From a virus, in IMG/VR virus record IMGVR_UViG_3300008262_000411, positions 1-25,403 of that record: a stretch of DNA of 25,403 nucleotides; one strand, 5' to 3'. The notes under the pieces are model-generated. The model searched no databases. It was not told the DNA's origin and saw nothing but the letters and a program-made list of their open reading frames with translations. A program made the translations under genes and the position numbers. Positions 3,678 through 25,143 of this stretch are shown here, one piece after another (positions within the stretch are counted from its first letter, which is position 1; every line of letters starts with the position of its first letter).

Positions 3678-4856
3678 ATGATAACAACTGACTCATTGCT
3701 CATAGAGCTGTTCCAACAAGGAATCGAAAGACTGGAAATTACTATCCCAACTAGAGATAAGAAAATTTTAATCAGCCTTTCAAAACAAATTATATCGGGT
3801 CACTTTTTAACCGAAAATCAGGCAAAATTGCTGGGGAAAATTCTCAAAGAAAATTCCAAGCATTTGCCTCAGTTGACTGAAGAGCATCGTGCTGTAGTTG
3901 AGTTTCCAACATGGAGCCAACCTTTTAGAGTCATCGAACAGCTGAGAAAAATATTCATTGTCAAAGACAATGATAGTCGAATAATTGTCGAATTTACCTA
4001 TAATAAGCGACTGCGACAGGTCATTGCAGACCTTAATAAATCCATTGAAGGTCAGATGCTATCAATTAATGGGAAGCAGTACAGCATCCCACTAACTGAA
4101 CAGAATGTACATACCGTAGTCAATACCTTCAAATCACAAGGCTTTGACATTGACCCAATTTTGATGAGATTTTATGAAGAAATTTTAGAAATTTTGTTAG
4201 GTACTGCTGACCAGTTTGAAATATTCAAAATTACAAATGACAAGATGTTGTCGTTAATAAAGAAAGATGTAACAGACATCGATGAAAATAATTTAAAACT
4301 TCTTAATGATCGAAGTCATCGATTTCAATACTCGATTTATCCTAAAAATTCAGAAATTTCACTGTCAAATTCACTAGCAAACAGGCCTGGCACAAAGGTC
4401 TGGATTGACAGCAACACTACTCCTATTACAGATATTATTCAGGCACTACAGACATTAAATCGACTTCCAGTACTATTAGTATTTAATGGCCACGACTCAA
4501 AGGAATCATTGCAAAATCTGAAAAAATTAGCAGGTGCTTTAGAAAATAACAACATTAAGACTAGTGCCGGAATTTACTTTAGATTTGACAATGTCACAGA
4601 CAATAACAAAGAATTTAATCAACTCATCTCTCATCTAGGATATAACACACCCCTAGATGACACAATTTTAGTAGCAGGAATTGCTAACAATAAATTGCCA
4701 AAATTCATGTTAAAAAATGGATGGTATCCTAGCAGTGTTATTAGTTTTTCAAATAATTTTAAAAGTAATAAAACCAGTGTCTATTGCGATGCAGTTGATT
4801 TGATAGTATACTACAATGACAAACGTCCCTTAGGAGGGGTAGATGCCATCGTGTAA
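3678..4856 (+). CDS. unrecognised 392-aa protein between uvsY and uvsW
   Basis: A soluble protein of which I can name no domain. The N-terminal part (residues 27-56) contains DKKILISLSKQIISGHFLTE followed by NQAKLLGKIL, a helical pattern seen at the start of several phage replication-associated proteins. The middle is rich in charged helices. The C-terminal half alternates beta and alpha elements (VLLVFNGHD, SAGIYFRF, DTILVAGI) and ends VDLIVYYNDKRPLGGVDAIV, reminiscent of a Rossmann or helicase-like sheet but without Walker motifs. Similar genes sit before uvsW in marine phage contigs from memory. It opens a transcription unit with its own promoter, and its last 14 bases overlap uvsW and carry the uvsW ribosome-binding site. 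Those links suggest a replication or recombination role (inference). Confidence 0.85.
   Translation: MITTDSLLIELFQQGIERLEITIPTRDKKILISLSKQIISGHFLTENQAKLLGKILKENSKHLPQLTEEHRAVVEFPTWSQPFRVIEQLRKIFIVKDNDSRIIVEFTYNKRLRQVIADLNKSIEGQMLSINGKQYSIPLTEQNVHTVVNTFKSQGFDIDPILMRFYEEILEILLGTADQFEIFKITNDKMLSLIKKDVTDIDENNLKLLNDRSHRFQYSIYPKNSEISLSNSLANRPGTKVWIDSNTTPITDIIQALQTLNRLPVLLVFNGHDSKESLQNLKKLAGALENNNIKTSAGIYFRFDNVTDNNKEFNQLISHLGYNTPLDDTILVAGIANNKLPKFMLKNGWYPSSVISFSNNFKSNKTSVYCDAVDLIVYYNDKRPLGGVDAIV
4832..4837 (+). promoter_or_regulatory. strong Shine-Dalgarno for uvsW
   Basis: AGGAGG lies five bases before the ATG at 4843, inside the last codons of the preceding gene. It is among the clearest ribosome-binding sites in the window. 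It fixes the uvsW start and shows the 14-base gene overlap is genuine. Confidence 0.8.
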
Positions 4857-6849
4857 ATTAATTATCCAAGATGAGGTAAATCTTAAGGTAGAAGGGCTTC
4901 CTGTTGAAATTCGACGCAAGTTAGCAAATACTTTTAAGTATGAGGATCCAACTGCCCGATATCGTCCAGCATACAAGTTAGGACGATGGGATGGCGCAAT
5001 TACCTTATTCGGATTAGGTGGCAATGGCTATCTTAGTCAGTTGCCTAAAATCTTAGAAGTTCTGGAAAAAAGTGGTGTTGAGATAACAGAAATTGTCGAC
5101 AACCGTGCGCCTATTAATTTACAATTTCCTCGTGTTGAAACAGACTTCTGGGGAGATCAGACATGGCCTGTAGGACATCGTTTTGCAGGCGAGCCAATTA
5201 GACTACGAGAAGATCAAGTAGAAGTAGTTAACAAATTTCTCGAAAATCCTCAGTGTCTACAGGAAATTGCCACTGGCTTTGGTAAGACAATTACCACTGC
5301 AACATTGGCAAAGATTTGTGAACCTTATGGCAGAACTTTTACTATTGTGCCTAATAAGAGTCTTGTTGAACAAACAGAAGAAGACTTTATCAACTGTGGA
5401 TTAGATGTCGGTGTCTACTATGGTGATCGTAAAGATCTATACAAAACACACACTATTGCTACATGGCAAAGTCTTAACATCCTTGACAAGAAAAGCAAGA
5501 ATCACGAGCAAGATATTCTAACACTTGCTGAATTTCTTGACGGTGTTCAGACAATTATGGTAGACGAAGTACACATGGCCAAGGCTACTGTACTTAGAAA
5601 TTTACTAACGCAAAACTTTAATAATGCCGCAATCCGATGGGGATTAACAGGCACAGTACCTAAAGAAGACTTTGAAGCAGAACAGATTTTTGCAAGTCTT
5701 GGTCCAGTAGTACACGAAGTTCATGCACACGAATTACAAGCACAAGGTGTATTGTCAGCTTGTCACGTAAACATTACACAACTTATTGACTTACCAGAAT
5801 TTAAGTCATATGCCGAAGAATACAAGTATCTTGTCACTGATGAAGACAGGATGATTTTTATATCAAAACTAGTAAATGGTATTTCTAATAGTGGCAATAC
5901 TCTTGTACTAGTAAATCGAATAGAGACAGGTAAATTTATTGTCAACGAAATTCCAGACAGTGTCTTTATTTCAGGTGAAGTAAAAACTAAAGATAGAAAG
6001 AGTGAATACGATGAAGTTAAAACTGTTGATAACAAGATTATTGTGGCGACTTACGGTGTGGCCGCTGTGGGTATTAATATCCCCCGTATTTTTAATCTGG
6101 TTATGGTGGAGTCCGGAAAGAGCTTTACAAGGGTTATACAAAGCATTGGGCGAGGCATTAGACGTGCAAAGAAAGAACCTCTAAAATTAGAAGCATATGC
6201 GTCTTTAGGACAGTTAGCTGACTTATTTCCAATTGTACGTTCAAAAGAATCATTGCCTAATTGGTATCATAATATTTCATCCCTTGAAGGGCAGAAAACT
6301 GTAAGGCAGTGTCCAGGTGTAAATAATCTTTTTCATAAAGGTGTTATGATACCTGCTTGGGCCGATCATGAAATTACTATTCATCCAAATGGGAATACAA
6401 ATGTTACTTCACCCGCGTCACAACAACCAACTGGGTCTCATCGATTAGTTAATGACGCACCTGGGGCCTGGCCAGGGTATGCTAATATAAAATTTTTAAA
6501 TCCATGGATGTTTTGGTGTAATAGACCAGTTGAGTGGTTATTTTTGCCTCCTACTTGGAACCAAACAGATCCTCAAGAATTCACAGTAGTGCCAGGCATT
6601 ATTGAATTTAAAGTGATACACGAAGCAAACATTAATACGTTGTTTAAATTAAAAGACAAATCATACAACATATCAATTAAAGCTGGAGATATTCTAATGC
6701 AGATGATTCCAGTAACTGAAGAACCGTTTGAATTAGAAATAAAATTAATGACGCCACAAATTTGGGCTGAAAAATTCCAACAATGGCCGTTTTCTGCAAA
6801 TTTTCTATATCATAAAGCTATATCTAAAATAAAAAAGAGTATAAAATAA
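4843..6849 (+). CDS. uvsW: UvsW-type helicase fused to a DUF6065-like C-terminal domain
   Basis: Residues 1-445 are a T4 UvsW-type superfamily 2 helicase. After an N-terminal region typical of UvsW (RYRPAYKLGRWDGAITLF) come motif I ATGFGKT (143-149), motif II DEVH (241-244), motif III GLTGT (267-271), motif V ATYGVAAVGINIP (402-414) and motif VI QSIGRGIRR (433-441). UvsW unwinds R-loops and regresses forks, switching T4 from origin- to recombination-dependent replication. The usual 45-60 residue tail after motif VI is missing. From about residue 447 (nt 6181) the chain is instead a different family, with landmarks ADLFPIVRSKESLPNWYHNI, TVRQCPG, IPAWAD, FLNPWMFW, VVPGIIEF and ILMQMIPV. I know this as a stand-alone phage family (DUF6065-like, label from memory). 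The frame is continuous across the junction. The function of the added domain is unknown. Confidence 0.9.
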   Translation: MPSCKLIIQDEVNLKVEGLPVEIRRKLANTFKYEDPTARYRPAYKLGRWDGAITLFGLGGNGYLSQLPKILEVLEKSGVEITEIVDNRAPINLQFPRVETDFWGDQTWPVGHRFAGEPIRLREDQVEVVNKFLENPQCLQEIATGFGKTITTATLAKICEPYGRTFTIVPNKSLVEQTEEDFINCGLDVGVYYGDRKDLYKTHTIATWQSLNILDKKSKNHEQDILTLAEFLDGVQTIMVDEVHMAKATVLRNLLTQNFNNAAIRWGLTGTVPKEDFEAEQIFASLGPVVHEVHAHELQAQGVLSACHVNITQLIDLPEFKSYAEEYKYLVTDEDRMIFISKLVNGISNSGNTLVLVNRIETGKFIVNEIPDSVFISGEVKTKDRKSEYDEVKTVDNKIIVATYGVAAVGINIPRIFNLVMVESGKSFTRVIQSIGRGIRRAKKEPLKLEAYASLGQLADLFPIVRSKESLPNWYHNISSLEGQKTVRQCPGVNNLFHKGVMIPAWADHEITIHPNGNTNVTSPASQQPTGSHRLVNDAPGAWPGYANIKFLNPWMFWCNRPVEWLFLPPTWNQTDPQEFTVVPGIIEFKVIHEANINTLFKLKDKSYNISIKAGDILMQMIPVTEEPFELEIKLMTPQIWAEKFQQWPFSANFLYHKAISKIKKSIK

Positions 6850-8397: not shown

Positions 8398-9098
8398 TGA
8401 TGTTAGAATTAAATGTGAATAATAAGCCATATACTTGTCAATTCTGCGGCCACAAATATATGCAAGAAAAAACTCTTGCAGTACATGTTTGTGAGCAAAA
8501 ACGTAGATTCTTAGCCAAGGATAGTAAGGCAGCAATTATCGGTTATCAAACATTTAACAGATTCTTCCAACTGACACAGGGCAAAGGTCAGAATAAAACG
8601 CATGATGAATTTGCACGTAGTCCTTACTATAATGCCTTTGTGAAATTTGGAAGTTTTGTTAGTAACATCAATCCGTTATATCCAGAAAAATTTATTGAAT
8701 ATGTAGTGCGCAGTGGTGTTAAATTAGATCATTGGTGTAGAGATGAACTGTATGAAAAATACGTAATTAATTTAATTCATACTGAATCTGTTGAGACGGC
8801 ATTAGAAAGAAGTGTTGCACACATGCAGTCTTGGGCAAGTGAAAACAATTCATTATGGAATCATTATTTTAAGTATGTTAGCACTAATAGAGCAGTGTAT
8901 GACATTAAAGACGGCAAAGTAAGTCCTTGGTTGATATTAAATTGCTCTAGCGGAAAAGAAATGTTGTCAAATTTTAGAGACGATCAGTTAAGTGCAATTG
9001 GTACTATCATTGATCCACAAGTATGGGTTAAGAAGTTTAAAAAGCAAACTTTTGATCTTGATCTAGTAAAAAAAATTGTTAAAGAATCGAGCCTATAA
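8397..9098 (+). CDS. zinc-finger phage protein, unknown function
   Basis: A 233-aa protein with an N-terminal finger YTCQFCGHKYMQEKTLAVHV: C14, C17, H30 and C32 form a C2HC cluster. A basic segment, KRRFLAKDSKAA, follows. The remaining 190 residues are a helical domain with recurring landmarks ARSPYYNAFVKFGSFV, FIEYVVRSGVKLDHWCRDELY, ALERSVAHMQSW and IDPQVWVKKFKK. I recall this two-part arrangement from marine T4-like phages, again without a function. The finger suggests DNA or RNA binding (inference). Two ATGs in tandem (8397, 8400) make the start uncertain by one codon; the first shares a base with the upstream stop. It overlaps the following gene by one base. Confidence 0.83.
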   Translation: MMLELNVNNKPYTCQFCGHKYMQEKTLAVHVCEQKRRFLAKDSKAAIIGYQTFNRFFQLTQGKGQNKTHDEFARSPYYNAFVKFGSFVSNINPLYPEKFIEYVVRSGVKLDHWCRDELYEKYVINLIHTESVETALERSVAHMQSWASENNSLWNHYFKYVSTNRAVYDIKDGKVSPWLILNCSSGKEMLSNFRDDQLSAIGTIIDPQVWVKKFKKQTFDLDLVKKIVKESSL

Positions 9099-9679
9099 TG
9101 CCAGATATTGATATTGACTTTGCTGACAGGGATCATGCCCTTAAATTTATCAAGCATATACCTGCGTCTATTAAAGATACAAATGGTACTTTTAAAAAGC
9201 ACAATACCGGCGTATATTGTACACCTATCCCGTACAATCCTGTAAATAACTTATCCAACGTAGATTACAAAGAAGCAGAAGAAAGAGGCTATTTTAAACT
9301 AGACTTTTTAAATGTTAGTATCTATAAAGATGTAAGAGATGAAGAGCATCTTAAAACTTTAATGGAGACTGAACCACTATGGGACCTTTTAGAGCAGGAC
9401 GATTTCAGCAGTTTACTATTTCACGTCAACGGACACGGAAGCATTTTGAGACAGATGAAGCCGACGAGTATACTCCAACTAGCGGCTGTTTTGGCTATGA
9501 TAAGACCCGCAAAGAGGCATTTGATTGGAGAGACCTGGACGACAGTGATGGAGACGATCTGGACGAAACCCGAGGATGGTGAGTACTACTTTAAGAAGGC
9601 TCACGCGGTAGCCTATGCAATGGCTGTGGTAGTACAGATGAATCTGATCTGCGAAGGAGTCAGTTACGGATTTAGTTAA
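9098..9679 (+). CDS. miniature DnaE-like (C-family DNA polymerase core) protein
   Basis: A 193-aa protein that reads as a condensed bacterial DNA polymerase III alpha palm. The motifs occur in DnaE order: PDIDIDF (residues 2-8; E. coli PDFDVDF with two catalytic Asp), KHNTGVY (34-40; KHAGGVVI), DYKEAEERGYFKLDFLNV (56-73; DKSDVEYAGLVKFDFLGL, whose Asp is the third catalytic residue), LFHVNGHGSILRQMKP (107-122; VFQLESRGMKDLIKRLQP), LAAVLAMIRPAK (128-139; MIALVALFRPGP) and YFKKAHAVAYAMAVVVQM (164-181; FNKSHSAAYALVSYQTL). All three acidic positions are kept. What is gone is the roughly 80-residue block after PDxDxDF, most of the fingers, and the PHP, beta-binding and OB domains (E. coli DnaE is 1160 aa). 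It is coupled to the zinc-finger gene by a one-base TAATG overlap. Catalytic activity is unknown; it may be a regulator or host-polymerase mimic instead. Confidence 0.85.
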   Translation: MPDIDIDFADRDHALKFIKHIPASIKDTNGTFKKHNTGVYCTPIPYNPVNNLSNVDYKEAEERGYFKLDFLNVSIYKDVRDEEHLKTLMETEPLWDLLEQDDFSSLLFHVNGHGSILRQMKPTSILQLAAVLAMIRPAKRHLIGETWTTVMETIWTKPEDGEYYFKKAHAVAYAMAVVVQMNLICEGVSYGFS

Positions 9680-10893: not shown

Positions 10894-11880
10894 ATGAGCC
10901 TAATCATAGACACAGTACAGTCATACCTTCCTGCAAAACGTAAAGTAACACCTAGTGGCTGGGTTAGCTTCAATGCGGTATGCTGTCACTATAATGGAAC
11001 GTCCGCTGACAATAGACAGCGTGGCGGCATTATGGTTAATGAAGGTGTTAGCTATCATTGCTTTAACTGTGGATTCAAAGCTAGTTGGCAACCTGGTCGC
11101 AAAGTATCAGTTAAACTGAAACGCCTTATGCAATGGCTAGGTGTTGCAGACGATACCATTACCAAATGTAGCCTTGAGGCCATGCGTATCGAAGAAGACA
11201 GCAGTTATCAGGGTGAGCGCAGTCTTATACCCACGTTTATTGACAAAGCCTTGCCAATTGGTACTAAACCATTGTCAGAATGGATTAAACATCCGTCAGA
11301 TGAACTAGTACCGGTATTAGAATATCTAGCCAGCCGCAATCTATATGTAGACGACTATCCATGGCACTGGACCGACGAGGATGGATTTAACAATAGACTT
11401 ATCATTCCGTTCTATCACGAACACAGACTAGTCGGATACACTGCCCGTAAAATTACTGCCGGCAAGCCTAAGTATATCAGTGAACAGCAACCCGGTTATG
11501 TGTTTAATTTAGACAGACAACATTACGAACGTAAATATGTCATTGTAACAGAAGGTCCCATTGATGCTATCTGTGTAGACGGAGTTGCCGTTATGAGTGC
11601 TGAGATCAGCGCCAGTCAACATGCATTGATAAGTCAACTACAGAGAGAAGTAGTAGTAGTGGCAGACAGAGATGACGCTGGTTACAGGATGGTTGAACAG
11701 GCACTAGAATACGGATGGAGTGTGGCTTTTCCTGAATGGATCGAAGGCGTTAAGGACGTTAATGACGCAGTTATTAAATACGGAAAGCTGTACACCCTAT
11801 ATAGTATTTTAAGCACTAAAGAATCTAACAATTTAAAAATACAATTGCGAGCACGTAATTGGTTTAAGGAAGAAGTATGA
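10894..11880 (+). CDS. 61: gp61-type DNA primase
   Basis: A 328-aa DnaG-family primase of the T4 type, which makes RNA primers on the lagging strand with the gp41 helicase. The N-terminal zinc ribbon uses C30/C31/H32 (AVCCHYNG) and C56/C59 (YHCFNCG). The TOPRIM core has VTEGPIDA (218-225, catalytic E220), DRDDAG (258-263) and KDVNDAV (287-293). NRLIIPFYHEHRLVGYTARK (167-186) is the usual RNA-polymerase domain segment. Length matches the T4 protein (342 aa) and it seems intact. No Shine-Dalgarno precedes it, consistent with the leaderless promoter at 10859-10893. Its stop overlaps the next small gene as ATGA. Confidence 0.93.
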   Translation: MSLIIDTVQSYLPAKRKVTPSGWVSFNAVCCHYNGTSADNRQRGGIMVNEGVSYHCFNCGFKASWQPGRKVSVKLKRLMQWLGVADDTITKCSLEAMRIEEDSSYQGERSLIPTFIDKALPIGTKPLSEWIKHPSDELVPVLEYLASRNLYVDDYPWHWTDEDGFNNRLIIPFYHEHRLVGYTARKITAGKPKYISEQQPGYVFNLDRQHYERKYVIVTEGPIDAICVDGVAVMSAEISASQHALISQLQREVVVVADRDDAGYRMVEQALEYGWSVAFPEWIEGVKDVNDAVIKYGKLYTLYSILSTKESNNLKIQLRARNWFKEEV

Positions 11881-11987
11881 ATTTTATTAATTATTTATTG
11901 AAGCCGTATCTTCGTTGGAAGGAGCGCCGAGCTTTTAAAAAACGACTTGAAGAATTGCGCAAACGAGATCCGTTTATCTACAAATGA
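11877..11987 (+). CDS. 36-aa basic microprotein
   Basis: A very short gene reading MNFINYLLKPYLRW, then KERRAFKKRLEELRKRD and PFIYK. Its ATG overlaps the primase stop (ATGA at 11877-11880) and its stop overlaps the next ATG (ATGA at 11984-11987), so it is stitched between two genes. A hydrophobic and aromatic N-terminus followed by a strongly basic amphipathic helix suggests membrane-surface or nucleic-acid contact. I recall very similar short sequences ending RDPFIYK in marine phages, which supports a real gene. The function is unknown. A GGAAGGAG-like run at 11918-11924 lies inside it and too far from the next ATG to act as its ribosome site. Confidence 0.72.
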   Translation: MNFINYLLKPYLRWKERRAFKKRLEELRKRDPFIYK

Positions 11988-12937
11988 TTACCTGGGGAAT
12001 AAACGCACTTAATCACGGCAGTAGTCTTGCTGTGTTTAATAACGGCCAACTGATATTTAATAATGTTGATAAGACTCGTGACAACCCACACAACCTAATA
12101 AGTGATGCCATGTTCAAAGGTTGGGAGCCAGATCATATTTTCTGGTATGAAAATCCCTGGGTTAAGAAAGCTAGGCAAATCAAAGCCGGACAATATAAGA
12201 CAGCATTTAGATTAGATAATCTTCCCAAGCATCATCTTAAGAAATGGGGATTGGGTTATGCATCACTTAGCTATACTCCTCACCATGCTAGCCATGCGGC
12301 TGCAGGCTATTATACAAGTCCATTTAACCACTGTGCTATTGTTGTACTAGATGCTATAGGTGAGTTTGAATGTGCTACTATTTGGCAAGGCCGACACGGT
12401 GAAATGAAGAAACTTTGGTCTGCTAGGTATCCAAACAGTCTGGGACTATTCTATAGTGCATTTACTAAACTACTAGGTCTTACTCCTATACAAGACGAAT
12501 ACCTACTACAGAAAATGGCTGAACAAGGTGATCCTGCTAGATTCAGACAAGAGGTAGGGCACTATTTTGGCACGGGCATAGTCGACCTTAAGTACAATTT
12601 TCATCGAGGCGTACTCGACTGGAGTCCTGAGCCAGCCACCATTCAAGAGCAGTGTGACATTGCCGCAGCCGTACAAGAACGATTTGAATTCGAAATTAAC
12701 TATGTAATGGCTGAAGCCAAACGATTAACCAATGCTGAATGCCTAGTTTATATGGGCGGGTGTGCTATGAACAGTCGAGCCAATCAGACTCAAGTAGAAC
12801 CCATGTTTAAGTATCGATGGTCGTTAGCCGATCCCGGTGATCCCAGCAGTAGCCTAGGTGCAGTACTGTATCATACCAAACAAAGAATTAGAAAAGATGA
12901 CTGGGGTCCAGTCAAACATATTGAAATTAAAATTTAA
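11984..12937 (+). CDS. half-size carbamoyltransferase (NodU/CmcH/TobZ family, Kae1-like domain only)
   Basis: A 317-aa member of the O-carbamoyltransferase family. It has the N-terminal strand WGINALNHGSSLAVF, the metal-binding signature HHASHAAAGYYTSPF (H100, H101, H104), VLDAIGEFE (D123), LGLTPIQDEYLLQKMA, the nucleotide-binding MGGCAMNS (257-264) and DPGDPSSSLGAVLY. Relatives such as TobZ are about 550-600 aa with a second, YrdC-like domain that forms carbamoyl-adenylate. That half is absent: the chain ends 25 residues after the GDPSSSLGA block. The enzyme may rely on a host TsaC/YrdC-like protein or have changed chemistry. In phages such enzymes could modify nucleotides, DNA or sugars (inference). 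It is coupled to the microprotein upstream by an ATGA overlap. Confidence 0.88.
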   Translation: MITWGINALNHGSSLAVFNNGQLIFNNVDKTRDNPHNLISDAMFKGWEPDHIFWYENPWVKKARQIKAGQYKTAFRLDNLPKHHLKKWGLGYASLSYTPHHASHAAAGYYTSPFNHCAIVVLDAIGEFECATIWQGRHGEMKKLWSARYPNSLGLFYSAFTKLLGLTPIQDEYLLQKMAEQGDPARFRQEVGHYFGTGIVDLKYNFHRGVLDWSPEPATIQEQCDIAAAVQERFEFEINYVMAEAKRLTNAECLVYMGGCAMNSRANQTQVEPMFKYRWSLADPGDPSSSLGAVLYHTKQRIRKDDWGPVKHIEIKI

Positions 12938-12955: not shown

Positions 12956-14422
12956 ATGACAACTAGACAAAACGCAGACTACGGATACGATATCCAGAAA
13001 CTATATCTCGAAATGATGCTTGGAGACGCAGAGACATTTGTGCGTTGCCAAGGTATTTGGGATGACAGCTTATTTGATCGTAAGCTACAAGGTGCCGCCA
13101 AGTTCTTTAAAGCATATGTAGATGAACACTCAATTATTCCTACAGCCGATATTATCAATGCCGCAACTAATAGTAGTTTTAAAGTTCCAGAAAATCTACA
13201 AGAAGCACACTATGATTGGCTATTAACTGACTTTGAAACTTTTATCAAACACAAAGGTTTAGAACGTGCTATTCTTGAAAGTGCAGACTTATTAGAAAAA
13301 GGCGACTACGGCCCAGTAGAGGATAAAATTAAGAAGGCAGTACAGATTGGCTTGCAGAAAGACATGGGTACAGATTACTTTTTAGATCCCCGTGCTCGAC
13401 TGATGAAAATCAAAGATAAAAACGGACAGATGTCAACAGGCTGGGAGGCATTAGATCAGAAACTGTTTGGTGGTTTTAATCGCGGTGAACTTAATATCTT
13501 TGCTGGCGGGTCAGGCGCAGGTAAATCCTTGTTCCTAGCTAATCTAGGTGTTAACTATGCGCTAGCAGGTATGAATGTTATCTATCTAACACTAGAACTT
13601 TCAGAAGAACTTGTGTCAATGCGTATTGACAGTATGGTTACTGGAATCTCTACTAGAGAAGTGTTTAAGCAGATCGATGAGGTAGAAATGCGTGTTAGAG
13701 TTATTGGCAAGAAATCAGGCAGTATGCAGATCAAGTATATGCCAAGTGGTAAAACAGCCAATGACGTTCGTGCATACTTGAAAGAATATGAAGTTAAAAC
13801 TGGCAAGAAGTGCGACGTACTGCTAGTAGACTATTTGGACTTGTTAATGCCAGCTGGACAGAAGATTTCAGCGGAAAACCTGTTTATTAAAGACAAGTAC
13901 GTATCAGAAGAATTGCGTAATCTAGCAATGGAAAAGCAATGTGTGTTTGTTACAGCGGCACAGTTGAATCGTGGTGCTGTTGAAGAAGTTGAATTTGATC
14001 ACAGTCATATTTCAGGTGGACTTAGCAAGATTCAAACTGCTGATAATGTGTTTGGTATCTTTACAAGTAGGGCTATGCGTGAGCGTGGTAAGTATCAAAT
14101 CCAGCTTATGAAGACACGTTCGAGCTCAGGCGTAGGTATGAAGATTGATTTAGACTTTGATGTTGATACTTTACGTATTACCAACAGTGATGAACAAAGT
14201 GACAATGACAGCGGCAATAGTGTTAGTAAGGGTTCTAGTATTTTAGCGGGACTACAACGTACTAGTCAAACTGGTGGAACTAGCGAACCTTGGGAACGAG
14301 CACAACCTAAACCTGGAGTAGATCCTCTAGCGGGAATCTCTATTAAGAAAACGCCCGCTCAAGTAGAAAGTAGCAAGTTGAGACAATTGATTAACAATTT
14401 AGGCACTGAGGACGAATTGTAA
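12956..14422 (+). CDS. 41: gp41-type replicative DNA helicase
   Basis: A 488-aa DnaB-family hexameric helicase of the T4 type, which unwinds the fork 5' to 3' and activates the primase encoded 1.1 kb upstream. An N-terminal helical domain (residues 1-130) precedes STGWEALDQKLFGGFNRGEL. The RecA-like motor has Walker A GGSGAGKS (184-191), the catalytic Glu in LELSEE (E214), Walker B VLLVDYLDLL (D292), the sensor TAAQLNR (333-339) and MKTRSSSG (385-392) with its arginine. After about residue 400 there is a disordered Ser/Gly/Pro-rich tail with a final acidic helix (LRQLINNLGTEDEL). The length is close to T4 gp41 (475 aa). The start is the ATG served by the promoter at 12921-12949; no ribosome site is present. 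Confidence 0.95.
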   Translation: MTTRQNADYGYDIQKLYLEMMLGDAETFVRCQGIWDDSLFDRKLQGAAKFFKAYVDEHSIIPTADIINAATNSSFKVPENLQEAHYDWLLTDFETFIKHKGLERAILESADLLEKGDYGPVEDKIKKAVQIGLQKDMGTDYFLDPRARLMKIKDKNGQMSTGWEALDQKLFGGFNRGELNIFAGGSGAGKSLFLANLGVNYALAGMNVIYLTLELSEELVSMRIDSMVTGISTREVFKQIDEVEMRVRVIGKKSGSMQIKYMPSGKTANDVRAYLKEYEVKTGKKCDVLLVDYLDLLMPAGQKISAENLFIKDKYVSEELRNLAMEKQCVFVTAAQLNRGAVEEVEFDHSHISGGLSKIQTADNVFGIFTSRAMRERGKYQIQLMKTRSSSGVGMKIDLDFDVDTLRITNSDEQSDNDSGNSVSKGSSILAGLQRTSQTGGTSEPWERAQPKPGVDPLAGISIKKTPAQVESSKLRQLINNLGTEDEL

Positions 14423-16230: not shown

Positions 16231-19200
16231 ATGGCAAAAAAGCAGATATCAAACTATAAGTTCTTTCCAGGAGTTATTCCTCCAGCGTTTGATCAATATC
16301 CAGATGCCGTAGCACTAATAGAAGCAAATAAAACATATGTAGTTCAAGAAATTATGGGATTCCTTGAATATGCTTCCGGTACACCCCTAGTAGCACCTAC
16401 CCCTTTACCAGATGCTATAGCATTATTAACTGCAAATAAAGAATTCATTAAAGAGGAAGCAAATGCCTGGACATTAGATCAAATCGCTGATGCGCTAACG
16501 CCGTTTGTATATGATGCTGAAAAATGTGAAAGAGATTTAGGATATATCCTTACAGGCATTGCGTACGATATACCTTTAGGTACAAATTATAATTCTATAT
16601 TTTTAGGAAAAGCTGAATCAAACAGTTTAAATTTTACACAAGATGTTCTTAATGTAATTAACGTATCAAGAAATCAGGTAAAAGAATTATCAGCAATTGC
16701 ATCTAACCCAACTATATCAGCAGCAGTTACTACAGCATATGCTACTATTGGTACTGTAGCCAACGGTGGTGTCGTTCCGCTAACATTTACAAATCCCACA
16801 TCAGCAAGTGTGTTTCGTATTGCTGCAAAAGATCAGCTAATTATAAACAAGGCATTTATCCAAGCCGAAGTCAATGCATGGGTTGCTTCTGAGTTTCCTG
16901 CTTATGATCACGACGTTGCTAAATGTACTAGGGATATTGGATATGCTGTAGATGCAGCCTGCTATGACATTTTGTACGGTGGCAACAGTGCAAGTTACGA
17001 TCAAGCAAAGTTTTTCTTCTATGCAAGTGCCGCAGGTGCACCTGGAATTGCTCCTGTACACAAAATACAAACTCTTAGTGCATATTTTAGATTTAAAAGT
17101 ATTATTGATGACATTGTTGCTGGCGTGCCTATAACAAAAACAACAACTGGCGCAACTCCTAACCTATTAGATCAAGATATTTCTGGAAATACCGCCAACG
17201 AAATTACAGCAAACCTTGTTGCAGATTTAATTCAAATAACAATTGACGTAGTTACTGCTGACACACAAGCCCAAGCTGCCGCAGCTCTTGCATTGTACGT
17301 AAAAGAAACTCCTAGTATTGCATGGGCAAGTCCTGCACAAATTGCAGCTAGTCAGGCTATTTTAACAAACAGTATTACAATACAAACTACCACAGTGTCG
17401 GGTAGCTATACTTACGATTTAGTAAAACAAGCTAAATGCAAGAGAGATATAGGTTATCTAGTTGATGCATTTATTGTAGACTTGGTCGGTGGTGGTAATG
17501 CTGAAACAATTCGTATTGCCCGTATGTTCTACCTTAACGGCGAAGCACAGTTATTAAATGCAGTCCAAGAAGAAGCTGTACACACATTTGTTAAGAACTT
17601 AATTACTAATTTTGTGTTAACAAACACACCCTATACAACAGATCAAAGTCCAGTTATTGCTGCTCAAGTATTACTAGCTTCAGATGGAGAAGCTAGTGCT
17701 ATTACTAAACTTGCAGATCTTAACGATATTGTTATCAATTTAATTAGAGACGGACTAATTAGTCTTCCTGCAATTAGTTATAATTATAATGCACAATTTG
17801 TTGGATATACCTATAATGCTGCAAAATGCCAAAGAGATTCTACTTATATTGTTGACAGTTGGATATACGATTTAACGTACGGTGGCAATTCTTTAACACA
17901 TTATGTTGGATCAAGATATTGGATTACTGGATTACCTCAAATTGACGGAGATAGGCAACCTGAAATTTTAGCTCATACATTTTCGAGAGATCTAATCAAC
18001 GAATATATTTTATTAAACAAGTACCATGCATCATACCAATATGATGTATATCAAACTGTTGACTTGTCATTGACTAGTGAAACTGGAGCAATTGGACAAG
18101 TTACTGTGTTATCAGATATTATCATCGACACTATTGATCAAGGATTAAGCGCATTACCTGCGCCAGTGGCTCCTAGCTCACAGGGCGGAAGTTTGATGTT
18201 TAACGCAGTCGCATTGTTAAATGCCAATAAGAGATTCATTCAAGAAGAAACTATTGCATATATTCAATACAATGTAGATAATAACATTGCTCCGTATGTA
18301 TTCTATACATACAATGCAGAAAAATGTAGACGAGACGTAGCGTATATCCTTGAAGGATATATTGGTGATCTTAGCTTTGGCGGCAATAGAGAAACATACT
18401 TTAATGCTAGTAGATACTGGGACAAAGGTGTTGCTCAAGTTGACGGTGATAGACAACCCGAAATCTTTGCGCACACGTTTATTAGAGATCTAATTGAAAA
18501 CTATATTTGGACTAACATTGCGTTTACTCCAAAACAAATACTAGTCAGCCAGTACATTAACAATTCAGTTGTAGCTGAAACTTTTGCAAACACGCGAATT
18601 AAAGAACTTTCAAATACTATCTTAGATGTTATTGCAGAAGGAGTATTGTTACTACCAACTAAGGTATCTAATCGTGGCTACTTGAAAATACCAGGATTCT
18701 ATAAATTAAAAGACTTCTTGTTAATTACTAACTCAAGTCGCAATATTATCATGTATAATTTTGCAGACACTAACTCTGGTGCAGATGCAACCTACACTAC
18801 TGACTACGATAATGACTTTCCAGCAGCATTGTACGGGTTCAGCGATGTTACCACATTGGTATTTGATGTAGATACCAGTAACATGATGATTACTGACAGC
18901 ATTCAAATTTTTGTTGAATCAAAAGAACAAGCTGTTAGATTAAATCCAATTGCTACAGATGCAATGGAACGTATGAAAGTTGGTATTCCACAGTCCATGC
19001 TTGACGCTGACTTTGAGTACGGACTACAGCCAACTAAGTGGCAGGCAATTGCCATGATGAGAAACTATCCAAGTATCTATGAAATACCTGGATCAGACAT
19101 TGCAGTAACTAACGTAGTTACAGATGCATCTATTGGCACTGGTAATGCTGGTGCAAGTTCTATCACAGTTACTACACAAAATGCCCATGGACTTGTAGCC

Positions 19201-22200
19201 GGTGATCCAATTACAATTAAGGCGTTGGCTAACTCAATTAGCGGATTTAGCCGTGCTGAAGGAAGTTTCTTAGTATCTTCTGCTCCCAGCCTAACACAAT
19301 TTGTCTACTTTGCCAAATCTAAAGTAGGTACAAGTAACGGTCAAGTGTTGGCCAGTACATATACACAGTTACGCCGAGGCGGATTCTATACAGGATCAGC
19401 AATTGGCAATCCAGCATTTACTGTTTTCTCTGCAGGTAGCAGTGGTACTATTACAACTTCGTTGATTACTGCATCGGGTAGAGACGTAATTGGCTTTACT
19501 GGATCACCTCCCCCAGTCGGATCACCGTTAGCAGGCACAGGCATAAGCCCAGGTGCACAGGTTACTGCGGTAACTGGCGGTGGTGGTATTATTGCAACAA
19601 CTACACTAGTTTCAACTGCGCCAGTTGGTGCAACCAGTCTTCTTGTTACTTCAACTACTGGAATTAGTCCAGGTCTACTTATTGATAGGGGAGATGGATT
19701 TTCAGCACTAGTTACTGATGTAACTGGCAATACTGTAACTTTAGGATCTGCGTTAACTGCTGAAATTATTGGAGCAACTGACAATTATCTTTCACTAACA
19801 CCGGACACTACAAGCGGTACAGGTACAGGTGCAATTGTTAGTATATCTAGAAGTGGCGTATTGTATTCAGTTACTGTTAATAACAGCGGCGAAGGATACG
19901 TTGCTAATGATACTCTTACAATTCTAGGCACACAGTTAGGCGGAACAACTGCAACTAATGATGCAGTTGTTACAGTAGAGACAGCCAGTGCTATTAATTC
20001 AGTAGCATCATTTAACAACAGCACATTGATTGGCGGCGCTGGCTATTCTACAGGCACTGGAGTAAGTACCAGTGGCGGCTCTGGAACAGGTCTTACAGTT
20101 AACGTTACTCAAACTAGCGGAGTTGTTACTGCTGTATCAATTAACAATTCTGGTGCAGGATATACTGTAGGTAATCTTATTACTATTACTCAGCCACTGG
20201 GATCAGTATTAACATTTAATCAAACTGCTGCGGGTACAGGATACTCAACGGCTAACGGACTATCAACTACTACAAGTGGTAGTGGTACTGGACTTACTGT
20301 TAATGTAGTTGACGACGGCCTCGGCGGCATTGCTACTATAACTGTTGTTAATAAAGGAACAGGCTATGCACCTTCAGACGAAGTTACTATTGTAACTGCT
20401 GCTGCTAGAGGTGCCCTTACCTCTATAGATTTCTTATTCACAGGAACAGGATATACTGCTGCTACTGCCGTCCCTATTACTACGGGCTCAGGCACAGGCG
20501 CAACTGTAAGCATCTTTGCTAATACTATTGGTAAAATTACTGGTGTTGGAAGTATAGTTGCTGGTACAGGGTACACTGTTGATCTATTTGGTCTTACACC
20601 TTCAGGCGGTAGTGGTACTGGTTTGACAATTGATGCAATTTTTGACGGCGCATCTGGTATACAATCGGTTGCTGTTACCCAAGGTGGAGAAGGTTATACT
20701 ATTGGAAATACATTTATTGTTCCAGGCGGAAACAATGATGCAACCTTCACAGTAGCTAGTATAGAACAAGGTCAAATCACAAGTATTATCATAGCTAGTG
20801 GCGGAACTAACTTTGTAGTTGGTGATACATTGGATATTCCAGGCGGAAACAATGATGCTTCAGTTGAAGTACTAGCCGTTACAACCTATGACGCTACATT
20901 TGATGTATTAACAGTGTCAACATCGGCAACTATTGAAGTAGCAACAGTAAGTGCAGGCGGAGTTATACAAAGTGTTAGTGTAGCAGGTACTCCAATTAGT
21001 TCTCCTGCTAAAACTTTTGTTAGTGCGTTTACAATCAGTGAACCTACTACTGCTGAAATTGCCAGTGGAAGTACAGGTATTACCTACAGTGCGATTTCTG
21101 TAATTCAAGTTAACTTTGCAAGTGCTCACGGATTTATTCCAGGTGACACTATTACTGTTGCTATTAGCTCATCAGGAACTGGAGCACAAAATGCAGCAGG
21201 ACCGTTCTTCGTAGAACAAGTTCCAGATGCAAATACTATTAGATATACTGCAAGAGCAGCTGGTACAATTGACAATACCTTAGTTGGTGTTATCTACGGT
21301 CGTCCAGATAGCTTCTTTGTACACAGACCGTTCGACGGTGGTGTACAGTTAGGTACAGCCAGCCCGAGTCACGGTGCTACTGCGATTCGTATGAGTAAGA
21401 AATACATTCGTTACCAGTCTGGTAAAGGTGTTATGTATAACACAGGTGCGCTATTTGCACCATCATATGATATTCGTTCGTTAACTGCTACTGGTACAGC
21501 AGTAGGAAGCGTTATCACTCTGGTTACAGATGATACTGATCACGGATGTCAAGTTGGTGGTATTATTCAAATCAGCGGATCGTTGACTAGTGGGTATGAC
21601 GGCACATACACTGTTGCTGATATAACTAACGAACGACAGTTATCAATTATTGCAAATAAAACACTAGCTGCCACAACTGCCTTATTAGGAAGCCCGTGCC
21701 TAATGAGTATTCGCAACTGGCATGGCGCAACAATTCGCGCAGGTATTTTTGATGATCAAAACGGCATGTTCTGGCAGTATGACGGTCAGCGTATGGCGGT
21801 GGTACGTCGTTCTAGTACATCAGTGATCGCAGGTACTATTGCCATTGCCGCTAACAGTAACCTAGTAACAGGTACTAATACTAGATTTACCAGTCAATTG
21901 GCTGCTGGAGATCGAGTTGTTATTCGTGGTATGACTCACATTGTAAGTCAAGTTACAAATGATACACAGATGTTTGTAACACCTGACTTCCGTGGTGTTT
22001 CTAACGTTACTGAGGCTAAAATTGTTAAGACCATTGACATTCAAATTCCACAAAGCGATTGGAACTTAGATACATTAAATGGTGCTGGTCCTAGCGGCTA
22101 CAACATTGACGTTACTAAGATGCAGATGATTGGCTTACAACACACATGGTACGGTGCGGGTTTTATTGACTTTATGCTACGTGGTCCTGAAGGTAACTAT

Positions 22201-25143
22201 ACTTTTGCACATCGTTTCCGTAACTCAAACGTTAACACTGAAGCCTATATGCGTACTGGTAACCAGCCAGTTCGTTACGAAGTTATCAACGAAGGTGCCA
22301 AGGATAAGCTAGTATCAGCAATGAACGCTACACAGACTACTATCCCACTAGAGAACGCCTATTGGTTCCCTAACAGCGGTACAGTAATTATCGATGCAGA
22401 ACTAATTCGATTTACAGGCAATACTGGAACAACCTTAACTGGTTGCACACGTGGTACAGTGCTAACACAATTTACAGCTGGTAGCCAACGTAGTTTCTCA
22501 GGTGGACCTGCTACTACACACAATGCCCTAGCAGGTGTTATTCTAGTCAGTAATACTATTACTCCAAACATTAGTCACTGGGGTTCAGCGTTTATGATTG
22601 ACGGTCAGTTTGACAGCGATCGTGGATACATCTTTAACTATGCATCTACTGCTATCAGTGCCAGCGTTGATAAAAATACAGCTTTCTTAATTCGTCTAGC
22701 ACCTAGCGTTAGTAACGCACAAGTTGGCGACTTAGGTGAAAAAGAATTGCTAAACAGAGCGCAGTTGCTATTATCTGGTATTTCAGTGACTACTGACCCT
22801 GTAGACTCTGATGATCCGTTTGTTGGTAATACTTGGTCTAGTGGCGGTACTGCTACCAGTGGACAATATTACACACGTACAACCGCATTAGGTGTTAAGA
22901 ACTGGTACCAAGCTACTAGCTCAGGAACATTTAGTTCAACTGCACCAGAGTTTGCATCAGGTACAGGTGCTAGCGGAACATATGGTGTTAACCTAACGTG
23001 GGCAGGTGTAACTCCTAATAACAACGGTGCTATCGTTGTTGAAGGTGTATTGAACCCAGCTAACTATCCAACAGATCCAACTAAGATTACCTGGACTGGA
23101 TTGTCAGCATCAGCTGCTGGTGGACAGCCAAGTTTTGCACAGATTGCGTCAGGTGGTTCTGTAACATGGAGTGGAAATGCCAGTACAAGTACTGCTTCTG
23201 TACAAGGTGCCTTCACTACTACACTAACTGCTAAGAGTTTCAACTTGGCTACTGCTTCGTTGACTGCTACTTCGTTTAGTGCAGTTACACAGAATATCAT
23301 AGCAAGATCCTTTGCTCCTGCTACTAGTGGTACATACATAAACGCATTGAGTACCTCAAGACAAGACTTCTTAGTTCTACAAAGTGATCTTGCTACATTA
23401 AATGGTTCTACCGCTGTAGTAGCTGGTGATACACTGACTGTACAGGGTAATGGCGGTACCTTGTCCGGTCTTACTATCAATGGACTAGAAGGTCAGATAT
23501 CGTTTACTGCATACGCCAACACCTTGTATGTAGGACAGACAATTACCATAACTGGTTCAATTAGCAACAGTAATTTTACTCTGGCAAACCTTACAATTAC
23601 AGGCACGACGGGTCAGTTTAGCTGTAACTTCGCTGGTCAAACTCTTCGTGTGGGGCAGCGTATAACGTTCAGTGGTAACCAAACAGGTATTGGTAATATT
23701 TCAGGTTACTCTAACCCAACTACCTACTTGATCAGTGCAACCAACGGTTCAACAACCTTTACTATAACTACCACAGCTGGTGCCACAGTAAATACAAGCA
23801 CTGGCGCTTGGACATCAGCAGGCGGTAGCGTTACTGTGCTTGCACCGAGCATTACTGGTTATATCAGCGGCACAACCTATAGAATTGCAGCAACCAACGG
23901 TTCAACAACAGCCACATTGACTACTACTGGTGGCGCTGCTATTACAACGTCAGGAGGCCTACCAACTGGATTAACCTATACAGTGGCTACGTTTATTAAT
24001 TCAACTACTATTAACACAGTAACGCAGAATTATATTTCATTAGCTGGGCAGACTTATGCGCGAATCATAATGAATGCGTTCCCGCAAAGAACTTCAGGTA
24101 CTGCCACTGTCAACGGTGAATTCAACGTGGTAGTAAGGATAACCAGCAGTTTAGCAGCAACCTATAACTCAGCTATCAGTAATGCTCGTACAGACTTCTT
24201 AATACCAAATGCGCAGGTGTCAACCATTGCTCTAGCTGACGTACTAAGTGCCACTACCTTTATCACTGGTGGACAAAGTATCAGTACGTTCACAGCCAGT
24301 TATGCAGTTATCAACAGTGTAACCTATGCTCGAGTCGTTATGACCGGTGCAGGGTCAGCGTCCAGTACAGCTGGCTCAGGTAACAACGTTGCGGTAACCA
24401 GTGCTAGTAGCGCAACCAACACTTACAATAGAGCATTTACCACTGCACGTAGTGATTTCTTAATTACAGACGCACAGTTTGCAGGATCTGGTATTCAAGT
24501 ATCAGATATATTAAGTGCTGCTTCTTTTATCACTGGCAGCCAGACTATCAGTTCAATAACAAATAGCTATGTGAATATTGGCGGAACACTGCATACTCGT
24601 ATTGTTATGAGCAGTTTAGCCAACGCTAACAGTACAGCTGGCGCGGGCAATGATGTAACTGTCACAGTGAGAGCAGCTGGTACAGCAGCCACCTATACCA
24701 GCACAAACTTTGTGTTCTTCACAGCAGCCTCATGGGTAGCATCAGGAGCCACAGTGAGTACTAGGGTTGCTACCATTGTTTCACAGTTCCCAGCTGGAAC
24801 TTCAGTGGCAGCAACTAGCACACGTACATTTGGTGCAACCACTGTATATCGTGTTACGTTCACGCAGACATCTAGTGGATCATTCAACGGCGGTGATACT
24901 ATCACATTCCAGTTCGGTGCTAGCTACGCACTACCAGGTGAGCAGGTATTCTCTTTCATTGCCAATCCCGGCAATACTGAACTATTGGATCTAAGTGAAT
25001 TGAAAGAACTTACTGCCACTGCAATTGGTGGACGTGGTACATTCCCAAATGGTCCTGACGTATTAGCCATCAACGTGTACAAGGTTTCAGGAACTCCTGT
25101 GCCAAGTAACGTGATTCTACGTTGGGGAGAAGCACAGGCCTAA
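16231..25143 (+). CDS. giant modular virion protein (2,970 aa), probable tail fibre or baseplate-associated
   Basis: The ATG has an AAGGA ribosome site (16216-16220). Regions in order: residues 1-780 hold five divergent copies of a module marked KC-x-RD...GY and a following YD...GGN (KC at 98, 231, 402, 532, 698). Residues about 960-1060 hold the first AHGLVAGDPITI segment. Residues about 1190-1555 are Gly/Thr-rich beta repeats (GSGTGLTVNV...GYT). A second AHGFIPGDTITV lies near 1632. Residues about 1700-2190 are the most distinctive part (GGVQLGTASPSHGATAIRMS, DDQNGMFWQYDGQ, LQHTWYGAGFIDFMLRGPEG, GSAFMIDGQFDSDRGYIFNY), known to me from large structural proteins of marine T4-like phages. Residues about 2370-2900 are further Ser/Thr/Ala-rich repeats, and the end is VPSNVILRWGEAQA. 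There are no signal peptide or membrane helices. It makes up over a third of the window and ends just before a strong terminator. Host recognition is the likely role (inference). Confidence 0.9.
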   Translation: MAKKQISNYKFFPGVIPPAFDQYPDAVALIEANKTYVVQEIMGFLEYASGTPLVAPTPLPDAIALLTANKEFIKEEANAWTLDQIADALTPFVYDAEKCERDLGYILTGIAYDIPLGTNYNSIFLGKAESNSLNFTQDVLNVINVSRNQVKELSAIASNPTISAAVTTAYATIGTVANGGVVPLTFTNPTSASVFRIAAKDQLIINKAFIQAEVNAWVASEFPAYDHDVAKCTRDIGYAVDAACYDILYGGNSASYDQAKFFFYASAAGAPGIAPVHKIQTLSAYFRFKSIIDDIVAGVPITKTTTGATPNLLDQDISGNTANEITANLVADLIQITIDVVTADTQAQAAAALALYVKETPSIAWASPAQIAASQAILTNSITIQTTTVSGSYTYDLVKQAKCKRDIGYLVDAFIVDLVGGGNAETIRIARMFYLNGEAQLLNAVQEEAVHTFVKNLITNFVLTNTPYTTDQSPVIAAQVLLASDGEASAITKLADLNDIVINLIRDGLISLPAISYNYNAQFVGYTYNAAKCQRDSTYIVDSWIYDLTYGGNSLTHYVGSRYWITGLPQIDGDRQPEILAHTFSRDLINEYILLNKYHASYQYDVYQTVDLSLTSETGAIGQVTVLSDIIIDTIDQGLSALPAPVAPSSQGGSLMFNAVALLNANKRFIQEETIAYIQYNVDNNIAPYVFYTYNAEKCRRDVAYILEGYIGDLSFGGNRETYFNASRYWDKGVAQVDGDRQPEIFAHTFIRDLIENYIWTNIAFTPKQILVSQYINNSVVAETFANTRIKELSNTILDVIAEGVLLLPTKVSNRGYLKIPGFYKLKDFLLITNSSRNIIMYNFADTNSGADATYTTDYDNDFPAALYGFSDVTTLVFDVDTSNMMITDSIQIFVESKEQAVRLNPIATDAMERMKVGIPQSMLDADFEYGLQPTKWQAIAMMRNYPSIYEIPGSDIAVTNVVTDASIGTGNAGASSITVTTQNAHGLVAGDPITIKALANSISGFSRAEGSFLVSSAPSLTQFVYFAKSKVGTSNGQVLASTYTQLRRGGFYTGSAIGNPAFTVFSAGSSGTITTSLITASGRDVIGFTGSPPPVGSPLAGTGISPGAQVTAVTGGGGIIATTTLVSTAPVGATSLLVTSTTGISPGLLIDRGDGFSALVTDVTGNTVTLGSALTAEIIGATDNYLSLTPDTTSGTGTGAIVSISRSGVLYSVTVNNSGEGYVANDTLTILGTQLGGTTATNDAVVTVETASAINSVASFNNSTLIGGAGYSTGTGVSTSGGSGTGLTVNVTQTSGVVTAVSINNSGAGYTVGNLITITQPLGSVLTFNQTAAGTGYSTANGLSTTTSGSGTGLTVNVVDDGLGGIATITVVNKGTGYAPSDEVTIVTAAARGALTSIDFLFTGTGYTAATAVPITTGSGTGATVSIFANTIGKITGVGSIVAGTGYTVDLFGLTPSGGSGTGLTIDAIFDGASGIQSVAVTQGGEGYTIGNTFIVPGGNNDATFTVASIEQGQITSIIIASGGTNFVVGDTLDIPGGNNDASVEVLAVTTYDATFDVLTVSTSATIEVATVSAGGVIQSVSVAGTPISSPAKTFVSAFTISEPTTAEIASGSTGITYSAISVIQVNFASAHGFIPGDTITVAISSSGTGAQNAAGPFFVEQVPDANTIRYTARAAGTIDNTLVGVIYGRPDSFFVHRPFDGGVQLGTASPSHGATAIRMSKKYIRYQSGKGVMYNTGALFAPSYDIRSLTATGTAVGSVITLVTDDTDHGCQVGGIIQISGSLTSGYDGTYTVADITNERQLSIIANKTLAATTALLGSPCLMSIRNWHGATIRAGIFDDQNGMFWQYDGQRMAVVRRSSTSVIAGTIAIAANSNLVTGTNTRFTSQLAAGDRVVIRGMTHIVSQVTNDTQMFVTPDFRGVSNVTEAKIVKTIDIQIPQSDWNLDTLNGAGPSGYNIDVTKMQMIGLQHTWYGAGFIDFMLRGPEGNYTFAHRFRNSNVNTEAYMRTGNQPVRYEVINEGAKDKLVSAMNATQTTIPLENAYWFPNSGTVIIDAELIRFTGNTGTTLTGCTRGTVLTQFTAGSQRSFSGGPATTHNALAGVILVSNTITPNISHWGSAFMIDGQFDSDRGYIFNYASTAISASVDKNTAFLIRLAPSVSNAQVGDLGEKELLNRAQLLLSGISVTTDPVDSDDPFVGNTWSSGGTATSGQYYTRTTALGVKNWYQATSSGTFSSTAPEFASGTGASGTYGVNLTWAGVTPNNNGAIVVEGVLNPANYPTDPTKITWTGLSASAAGGQPSFAQIASGGSVTWSGNASTSTASVQGAFTTTLTAKSFNLATASLTATSFSAVTQNIIARSFAPATSGTYINALSTSRQDFLVLQSDLATLNGSTAVVAGDTLTVQGNGGTLSGLTINGLEGQISFTAYANTLYVGQTITITGSISNSNFTLANLTITGTTGQFSCNFAGQTLRVGQRITFSGNQTGIGNISGYSNPTTYLISATNGSTTFTITTTAGATVNTSTGAWTSAGGSVTVLAPSITGYISGTTYRIAATNGSTTATLTTTGGAAITTSGGLPTGLTYTVATFINSTTINTVTQNYISLAGQTYARIIMNAFPQRTSGTATVNGEFNVVVRITSSLAATYNSAISNARTDFLIPNAQVSTIALADVLSATTFITGGQSISTFTASYAVINSVTYARVVMTGAGSASSTAGSGNNVAVTSASSATNTYNRAFTTARSDFLITDAQFAGSGIQVSDILSAASFITGSQTISSITNSYVNIGGTLHTRIVMSSLANANSTAGAGNDVTVTVRAAGTAATYTSTNFVFFTAASWVASGATVSTRVATIVSQFPAGTSVAATSTRTFGATTVYRVTFTQTSSGSFNGGDTITFQFGASYALPGEQVFSFIANPGNTELLDLSELKELTATAIGGRGTFPNGPDVLAINVYKVSGTPVPSNVILRWGEAQA
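16522..18345 (+). repeat. five divergent KC-x-RD-x-GY protein modules
   Basis: Coding repeats spaced 130-171 residues apart: KCERDLGYIL, KCTRDIGYAV, KCKRDIGYLV, KCQRDSTYIV and KCRRDVAYIL, at residues 98, 231, 402, 532 and 698. Most are followed by YD or VD and then GGN, and several are preceded by A-x-L-x-ANK-x-FI. Copies 4 and 5 also share DGDRQPEI plus a following AHTF helix. The DNA has diverged, so this is old tandem duplication. Confidence 0.85.
19800..20890 (+). repeat. Gly/Thr-rich beta-repeat array in the giant virion protein
   Basis: About six units of 35-60 residues, each with GSGTG(L/A)TV near the start, a T-x-V-x-V strand, then G-x-GY-x-x-(G/N)-D and an (L/V)TI strand. Two neighbouring units share a near-identical DNA stretch: TTCCAGGCGGAAACAATGAT at 20720-20739 recurs at 20837-20856, 117 bases (39 codons) apart, encoding PGGNNDA. 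The array looks like a beta-solenoid or shaft segment. Confidence 0.75.
23980..24702 (+). repeat. three tandem ~87-residue modules near the C-terminus of the giant virion protein
   Basis: The units carry (A/T)(T/S)FI-x-(S/G)...Y...(T/Y)(A/T)R(I/V)(I/V)M...NVVV/NNVAV/NDVTV, then an ARTDFLI or ARSDFLI segment. The two DFLI copies begin near residues 2647 and 2734, and a more distant SRQDFLV lies near 2371. The DNA is diverged but the order is constant, so this is a duplicated beta domain of a fibre. Confidence 0.7.

Follow-up and report, generated by a model that had tools for sequence, protein, structure and literature searches.

A conserved phage carbamoyltransferase reduced to its transferase half and encoded with an overlapping microprotein gene between primase and DnaB

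How does a carbamoyltransferase (CTase) obtain its activated donor when the half that forms carbamoyl-adenylate is missing from the protein? The question is raised by a short CTase gene in a 25.4-kb virus record, itself a fragment, which was analysed over its whole length (25,403 nucleotides) and is called the window here. The window carries a T4-like replication set composed of a gp32-like protein, a RecA/UvsX-like protein, UvsY, a UvsW-like helicase, primase and DnaB. Compared with phage records, its UvsX, DnaB and primase are matched best by jumbo phages such as Sinorhizobium phage Phosso, Atu_ph07, CBB, GAP32 and PA5oct/Paride, which are myoviruses. The short CTase is located between primase and DnaB of this jumbo-phage-like replication module (Table 1). 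In four phages that rank among the best cultured relatives by the neighbouring genes (Paride, Atu_ph07, Phosso and Vibrio phage 2.275) primase and DnaB adjoin, and no CTase was found between them. A search of phage records with P0001 gave only two matches, both to distant proteins of greater length (446 and 505 aa), and none of 107 pattern-matching bacterial or archaeal stretches encoded a relative. A promoter scan placed an 11-of-12 site before the primase gene and another at the end of the CTase gene; with nine sites found and 6.7 (sd 2.9) expected, we draw no inference from them.

Table 1. Position of the short CTase gene and its neighbours in the window
Feature	Position	Strand	Remarks
DNA primase	10894..11880	+	PHROG 47, E 1.7e-40; TGA 11878-11880 overlaps the microprotein ATG
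Microprotein gene	11877..11987	+	36 aa, MNFINYLLKPYLRWKERRAFKKRLEELRKRDPFIYK; C-terminus RDPFIYK
Short CTase, Kae1-like half only	11984..12937	+	317 aa; ATG 11984, TAA 12935-12937
DnaB-like replicative helicase	12956..14422	+	Pfam DnaB_C, E 5.3e-20; begins 18 bases past the CTase stop

Elsewhere in the window, a 193-aa protein with the motif PDIDIDFADR (9098-9679) matches the phage DNA polymerase family phrog_11778 and is read as a DnaE-like fragment beside primase; similarly placed genes of Paride and Phosso are annotated as DNA polymerase. The C-terminal stretch (residues 459-634) of the UvsW-like helicase (4843-6849) corresponds to family phrog_7084. A 2OG-Fe(II) oxygenase gene is found at 933-1610, and in many loci such genes occupy several positions of the replication region across phages. 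The 2970-aa open frame at 16231-25143 perhaps encodes a tail or fibre protein.

The signature motifs of a Kae1-like domain, described as intact in the original prediction, are indeed present (HHASHA at residues 100-105, GGCAMNS at 258-264 with GGCAMN at 258-263), and the YrdC-like half is absent as had been stated: a Pfam search of the protein matched Carbam_trans_N (E 4.7e-21, residues 91-294) and detected no Carbam_trans_C, PF16861 or PF01300. NCBIfam gave a weak NodU match only, and the protein covers just the first 326 of the 528 positions of PHROG 1601. In the predicted structure (pLDDT 83.9, pTM 0.84), residues 1-312 match GdmN, NovN, VtdB and TobZ with Z scores of 24-27, while the scores against TsaD/Kae1/Qri7 are about 15-18. 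Since the CTase matches extend over almost the whole length, the protein is a complete Kae1-like domain that is nearer to CTases than to TsaD. The resemblance to TsaD that had been proposed therefore stands in part: the Kae1 fold is common to both, but TobZ, GdmN and NovN are closer and the CTases at sister loci are full-length. With respect to TsaD/Kae1 membership, the Kae1 fold is seen in the model, while the TsaD family PF00814 scores 13.5 bits, under its cut-off of 24.8.

Functional residues can be assigned by comparison with GdmN. According to PMC9633730, H27 of GdmN is the general base and H133, H137, D156 and D333 are metal ligands, all acting in the Kae1-like domain, where alone nucleotides and carbamoyl-adenylate were observed; the same text describes class III carbamoyltransferases as two fused catalytic domains. 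In the printed GdmN alignment, H100, H104 and D123 of the short CTase coincide with the iron ligands H133, H137 and D156. D286 was assigned from the NovN alignment, in which it faces the matching NovN Asp (GdmN D333), and H11, the counterpart of GdmN H27, from its motif and the alignment to full-length phage CTases. The short CTase has the Kae1-like domain with His base and four ligands expected of a class III O-carbamoyltransferase. Because the YrdC half that defines the class was searched for and is not there, we file the protein as a derived variant of this class and not as a full member.

A first scan of viral contigs yielded 37 loci, and all 37 relatives are 312-319 aa long, each with a stop codon. 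In a second scan, based on a profile, relatives turned up on 460 viral stretches; the best 80 of these were retained and, joined by the window, make up the window-type set of 81 loci and 63 distinct proteins. In this set of the best 80 of 460 plus the window, H11, H100, H104, D123 and D286 are invariant in 63/63 distinct proteins, and the length is 312-319 aa in 80 of the 81 loci, the exception (L073, 309 aa) running off the end of its stretch. The five invariant residues together with the conserved length confirm that the ORF is real and complete and no artefact. Loss of the metal-binding His in homologues, named beforehand as an argument for inactivity, is not what we find, as His is kept in all 63. 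Two odd lengths were met among window-type CTases at microprotein-pattern loci, 307 aa (L294) and 338 aa from an upstream start (L301). The residue that follows the general base is a warning: it is Gly in 63/63 window-type proteins (best 80 of 460 plus the window), in contrast to a conserved Asp/Asn elsewhere, and other short CTases that are not of window type retain Asp after the general-base His. From this substitution, the chemistry of the window type may be altered.

Full-length CTases of 484-501 aa are encoded at the same primase-microprotein-CTase-DnaB locus of sister phages (e.g. L172, L179, L185, L190 and L207), which were found by searching for the microprotein tail. Those of L172 and L179 have PF02543 and PF16861 within 489 aa, and PF16861 is present at the locus in eight large contigs too. 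As sister phages hold a full-length enzyme at the same locus, we read the short form as one that has lost its YrdC half there. Further short CTases (321-339 aa, His-Asp intact) occur at the primase-DnaB locus. In a tree of the Kae1 columns, which omits L157, L289 and L213 and is limited to 17 window-type and 16 non-locus full-length rows, the window-type CTases form a single clade (100/99), to which the short L288 is joined, and six other short CTases are placed among full-length ones, requiring two changes. Constraining all short forms together made the tree worse by no more than 0.53 log units (AU p 0.499), so that a single loss is not rejected and one or two losses would both be compatible with the tree. 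The cultured T4-like phages S-SSM6a (L522) and HTVC008M (L523) have a full-length CTase without microprotein in their replication module, the sites in these cultured phages being after UvsW and between the gp41-loader and SSB genes. Cyanophage CTase genes of 1524-1803 bp are listed in PMC3037559.

If the missing half is not fused to the short CTase, it could be encoded separately. A YrdC-like gene in the rest of the genome had been proposed as the point to check, and the search detected no separate YrdC gene (PF01300) in 36 records, the window included, while a YrdC/TsaC-family protein was found in 14/14 control genomes. Likewise, PF16861 was never standalone in 64 records, every match lying within a 491-624 aa frame; the window itself gave no match to it. 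With no separate YrdC found, the earlier suggestion that the donor is borrowed from the host or another phage protein remains the best reading, and the carbamoyl donor for the short CTase is probably made in trans.

A candidate source is a second, full-length CTase encoded elsewhere (frame of 544-624 aa, about 32-63 kb from the short CTase). Among contigs of known state that reach 74 kb, 22 have the short form and 16 of these encode the second CTase, against none of the eight that have a full-length enzyme at the locus (Fisher p 0.0005, a value that ignores shared ancestry and follows a 74-kb cut set after seeing the data). It is missing in six of the 22, including the 383-kb G003, every record possibly being a fragment. 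Contigs below 74 kb stand outside this count, among them G058 and G060, where a long second CTase is present, and smaller ones without it, as does G057, where the contig ends within the CTase and PF16861 gives no match. G025 and G026 were kept though the short CTase of each belongs to a radical-SAM cluster; dropping both gives 16/20 and 0/8. The counts are not independent, as G024 and G030 have identical second CTases and the pairs G047/G059 and G025/G026 look closely related. The partly seen G054, G056, G059 and G061 were classed as short by their NHGSS motif and because PF16861 matched nothing at the locus; G053 and G055 were classed as full-length because PF16861 matched immediately after the fetched stretch. 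An origin of the short CTase from the phages' own second CTase is not favoured, the subfamily of the latter standing apart in the tree. In three loci inspected by eye (L132, L133 and L138), the second CTase is surrounded by SGNH-like and by glycine/cysteine-rich, tail-fibre-like genes, a setting that suggests a decoration of tail fibres or glycans.

The CTase start is not isolated, since its ATG is overlapped by the TGA of a microprotein gene (ATGA overlap) that the original prediction did not mention. From this arrangement, translation of the microprotein is probably coupled to that of the CTase. The microprotein is present in 81/81 window-type loci, 74 times directly upstream and seven times with one inserted gene, and the 74 adjacent copies share the C-terminus DP(F/Y)IYK (best 80 of 460 plus the window). 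Codon-position entropies of 0.65/0.47/1.17 over 55 distinct segments, with third positions the most variable, support a coding ORF. The mean net charge is +7.5 (27 distinct sequences), and the model shows a single helix spanning residues 2-30, from which the C-terminal tail extends freely (pLDDT 86.8, pTM 0.43). No Pfam or PHROG match was obtained, and two microprotein queries against 50,697 phage records retrieved nothing even with E values as high as 10 allowed, a search in which short basic queries can be missed.

The association extends to full-length CTases. When these were found by protein and not by motif, the microprotein motif occurred at most 2.5 kb upstream in 46/60 and 60/65 distinct loci, of which 32 and 33 have it immediately at the CTase start, compared with 1/235 control windows. 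Conversely, a scan with the tail pattern (at least 120 matches) gave 50 distinct places with 3.5 kb of room downstream; a CTase follows in 47 of them and is directly adjacent in 37. This count uses the first DNA pattern alone, the 62/65 obtained when the second was mixed in being set aside because that second pattern encodes a CTase start. In genome_contigs the pattern was found in two places, one apparently by chance and the other on a MAG contig of 14.7 kb that also has an SGNH-like gene. The microprotein is absent at L366-L370, L374 and L438, near-identical sequences in which the primase stop overlaps the start of a full-length CTase directly, and none was seen at the seven cultured or single-cell phage CTases examined. 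In L055, L056, L058 and L073 a gene is inserted exactly between microprotein and CTase, a methyltransferase (Pfam MTS) in the case of L055, which marks the junction as an insertion hotspot; L105 has a gene of the phrog_7084 family there, the family also seen at the C-terminus of the window UvsW-like helicase. Subscription papers being mostly outside the search, we found no literature on a CTase-linked microprotein and no paper uniting carbamoyltransferase, YrdC and phage.

Primase lies just upstream of the CTase in 73 of the 81 window-type loci and DnaB downstream in 51 of the 59 with room, the same eight loci being without primase and DnaB (best 80 of 460 plus the window). In these eight off-replication loci, about five of them distinct, the microprotein is still directly upstream; seven are near genes of the radical-SAM set and the eighth (L085) is near SGNH-like genes. 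The microprotein and the CTase move as a unit. Around another full-length CTase type (80 loci), a radical-SAM-like ORF was found within flanks of about 4 kb in 75 loci and two or more in 41. By Pfam, two proteins of L445 pass the Radical_SAM cut-off, another narrowly misses it and two have SPASM, while L484 has a tryptophan halogenase and an AMP-binding enzyme. At the replication locus, none of 24 loci with a full-length CTase showed radical-SAM-set or halogenase genes; radical SAM was not found in the first 38 window-type loci either, where the halogenase query matched in two (L035 and L037). Somewhere in the contig, 8 of 15 large contigs have radical-SAM matches, six of them above the cut-off. 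No microprotein was detected in the radical-SAM regions L525-L532, nor beside the 487-aa CTase of G036 (L531), which indicates that it accompanies some CTases and not radical SAM as such. One of these regions (L525, about 220-237 kb of G003:C1, a 383-kb phage contig) holds about a dozen radical-SAM genes without CTase or microprotein. In a comparative study (PMC7824862), cyanophage clusters of carbamoyltransferases, halogenase and a HemK-like methylase are read as systems for secondary metabolites or for the decoration of polysaccharides. Neither PMC12619734 nor PMC9723584 uses the word stem carbamoyl in its main text.

We favour, with moderate confidence, the view that the short CTase is the active transferase half of a NodU/TobZ-type O-carbamoyltransferase that is fed in trans and works with the microprotein. 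Its NodU/TobZ-type ancestor would have lost the carbamoyl-adenylate-forming half. The remaining protein would most likely bind carbamoyl-adenylate at the iron site and pass the carbamoyl group to an acceptor, with H11 as general base. The adenylate could be produced by the second full-length CTase that most large contigs encode, or by a host enzyme, and the microprotein might serve as a docking subunit, an anchor or the acceptor itself. Feeding by the second CTase has against it that this enzyme belongs to a different subfamily in the tree and that its gene is about 32-63 kb away.

The short CTase could also be a non-catalytic subunit, a TsaB-like partner that binds and regulates another enzyme, for instance the second full-length CTase, without transferring anything itself. 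The second CTase in 16 of the 22 large short-form contigs and the change from Asp/Asn to Gly after the general base would fit such a role, but the second CTase is missing in six of these contigs and a pseudoenzyme would not be expected to keep its general base and four ligands invariant in 63/63 proteins (best 80 of 460 plus the window), so that we regard a non-catalytic role as rather unlikely. We are equally tentative about a reading in which the microprotein serves the CTase as substrate or carrier: its DP(F/Y)IYK tail would be carbamoylated or bear a carbamoylated group in a phage-encoded peptide-modification pathway, with the window-clade CTase again fed in trans. Related pairs that have radical-SAM, SGNH-like, amidinotransferase-like and occasionally halogenase genes nearby provide the context for it; the window-clade pair is mostly found in the replication operon, its CTase reduced to the transferase half.

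It is distinctly unlikely that the protein uses the host TsaC product, threonylcarbamoyl-adenylate, as a phage TsaD-like transferase acting on tRNA or another acceptor. The YrdC/TsaC-family protein in 14/14 control genomes suggests that this donor would be available in most hosts, and the modelled fold does match TsaD/Kae1 (Z about 15-18). Against this, CTase structures match clearly better, PF00814 stays at 13.5 bits with a cut-off of 24.8, and the sister enzymes at the locus have a carbamoyltransferase C-terminal domain.

Carbamoylation of a hydroxymethylated base of the phage DNA was the first reading considered, prompted by the phage 5-hydroxymethylcytosine (5hmC) carbamoyltransferase known from PMC8670742, and it would explain the position in a replication operon with primase just upstream in 73/81 loci (best 80 of 460 plus the window). 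That enzyme, as described there, is phage-derived and has a PF02543 half like the short CTase; unlike it, it is a 63-kDa protein of a family that also has the PF16861 half, and such families co-occur with thymidylate-synthase homologues. We found thymidylate-synthase-family proteins in 0/21 and 1/16 records (overlapping and possibly incomplete sets), the only match in a record with a window-type CTase being that of G026. The 5hmC CTase groups with three relatives in a clade of its own (100/100); two of the three are close to annotated thymidylate synthase/hydroxymethylase genes, the third not being so annotated. Moreover, 8/81 short CTases lie away from replication genes (best 80 of 460 plus the window). 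A search for TET/JBP dioxygenase (PF12851) gave 0/16 records, the control search matching nowhere either. With the thymidylate-synthase counts and the separate clade, DNA carbamoylation, one of the possibilities raised in the original prediction, was set aside as very improbable: no hydroxymethylpyrimidine route was found in these possibly incomplete records. Finally, a degraded enzyme on its way out, as might be supposed from the missing half that sister phages keep, is hardly credible given the near-constant length, the intact start and stop, 110 invariant columns among 29 aligned sequences and 460 viral stretches with relatives.

Our preferred reading of a transferase half supplied in trans places the short CTase between known systems. 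With the class III enzymes NodU, TobZ, GdmN and NovN it has in common a Kae1-like fold over its whole length, the general-base His, the metal ligands and the GGxxxN motif, but it differs in being without the YrdC-like half, in the Gly that replaces Asp/Asn after the general base, and in the overlapping microprotein gene. The NodU-like CTases of uncultured phages such as L172 and L179 have the same primase-microprotein-CTase-DnaB order and Kae1 halves that align with it, but they retain the YrdC half (PF16861 in 489 aa). TsaD/Kae1/Qri7 are likewise single Kae1-like domains of the same fold that receive their adenylate from a separate YrdC protein; the short CTase differs from these in remaining below the PF00814 cut-off and in its expected donor, carbamoyl-AMP.

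A conserved transferase-only family beside two-half sisters at the same genomic position represents a natural test of whether one protein can pass carbamoyl-adenylate to another. Such a hand-over would parallel that of TsaC, which passes its product to TsaD, and the microprotein provides a concrete handle on the acceptor of these phage CTases.
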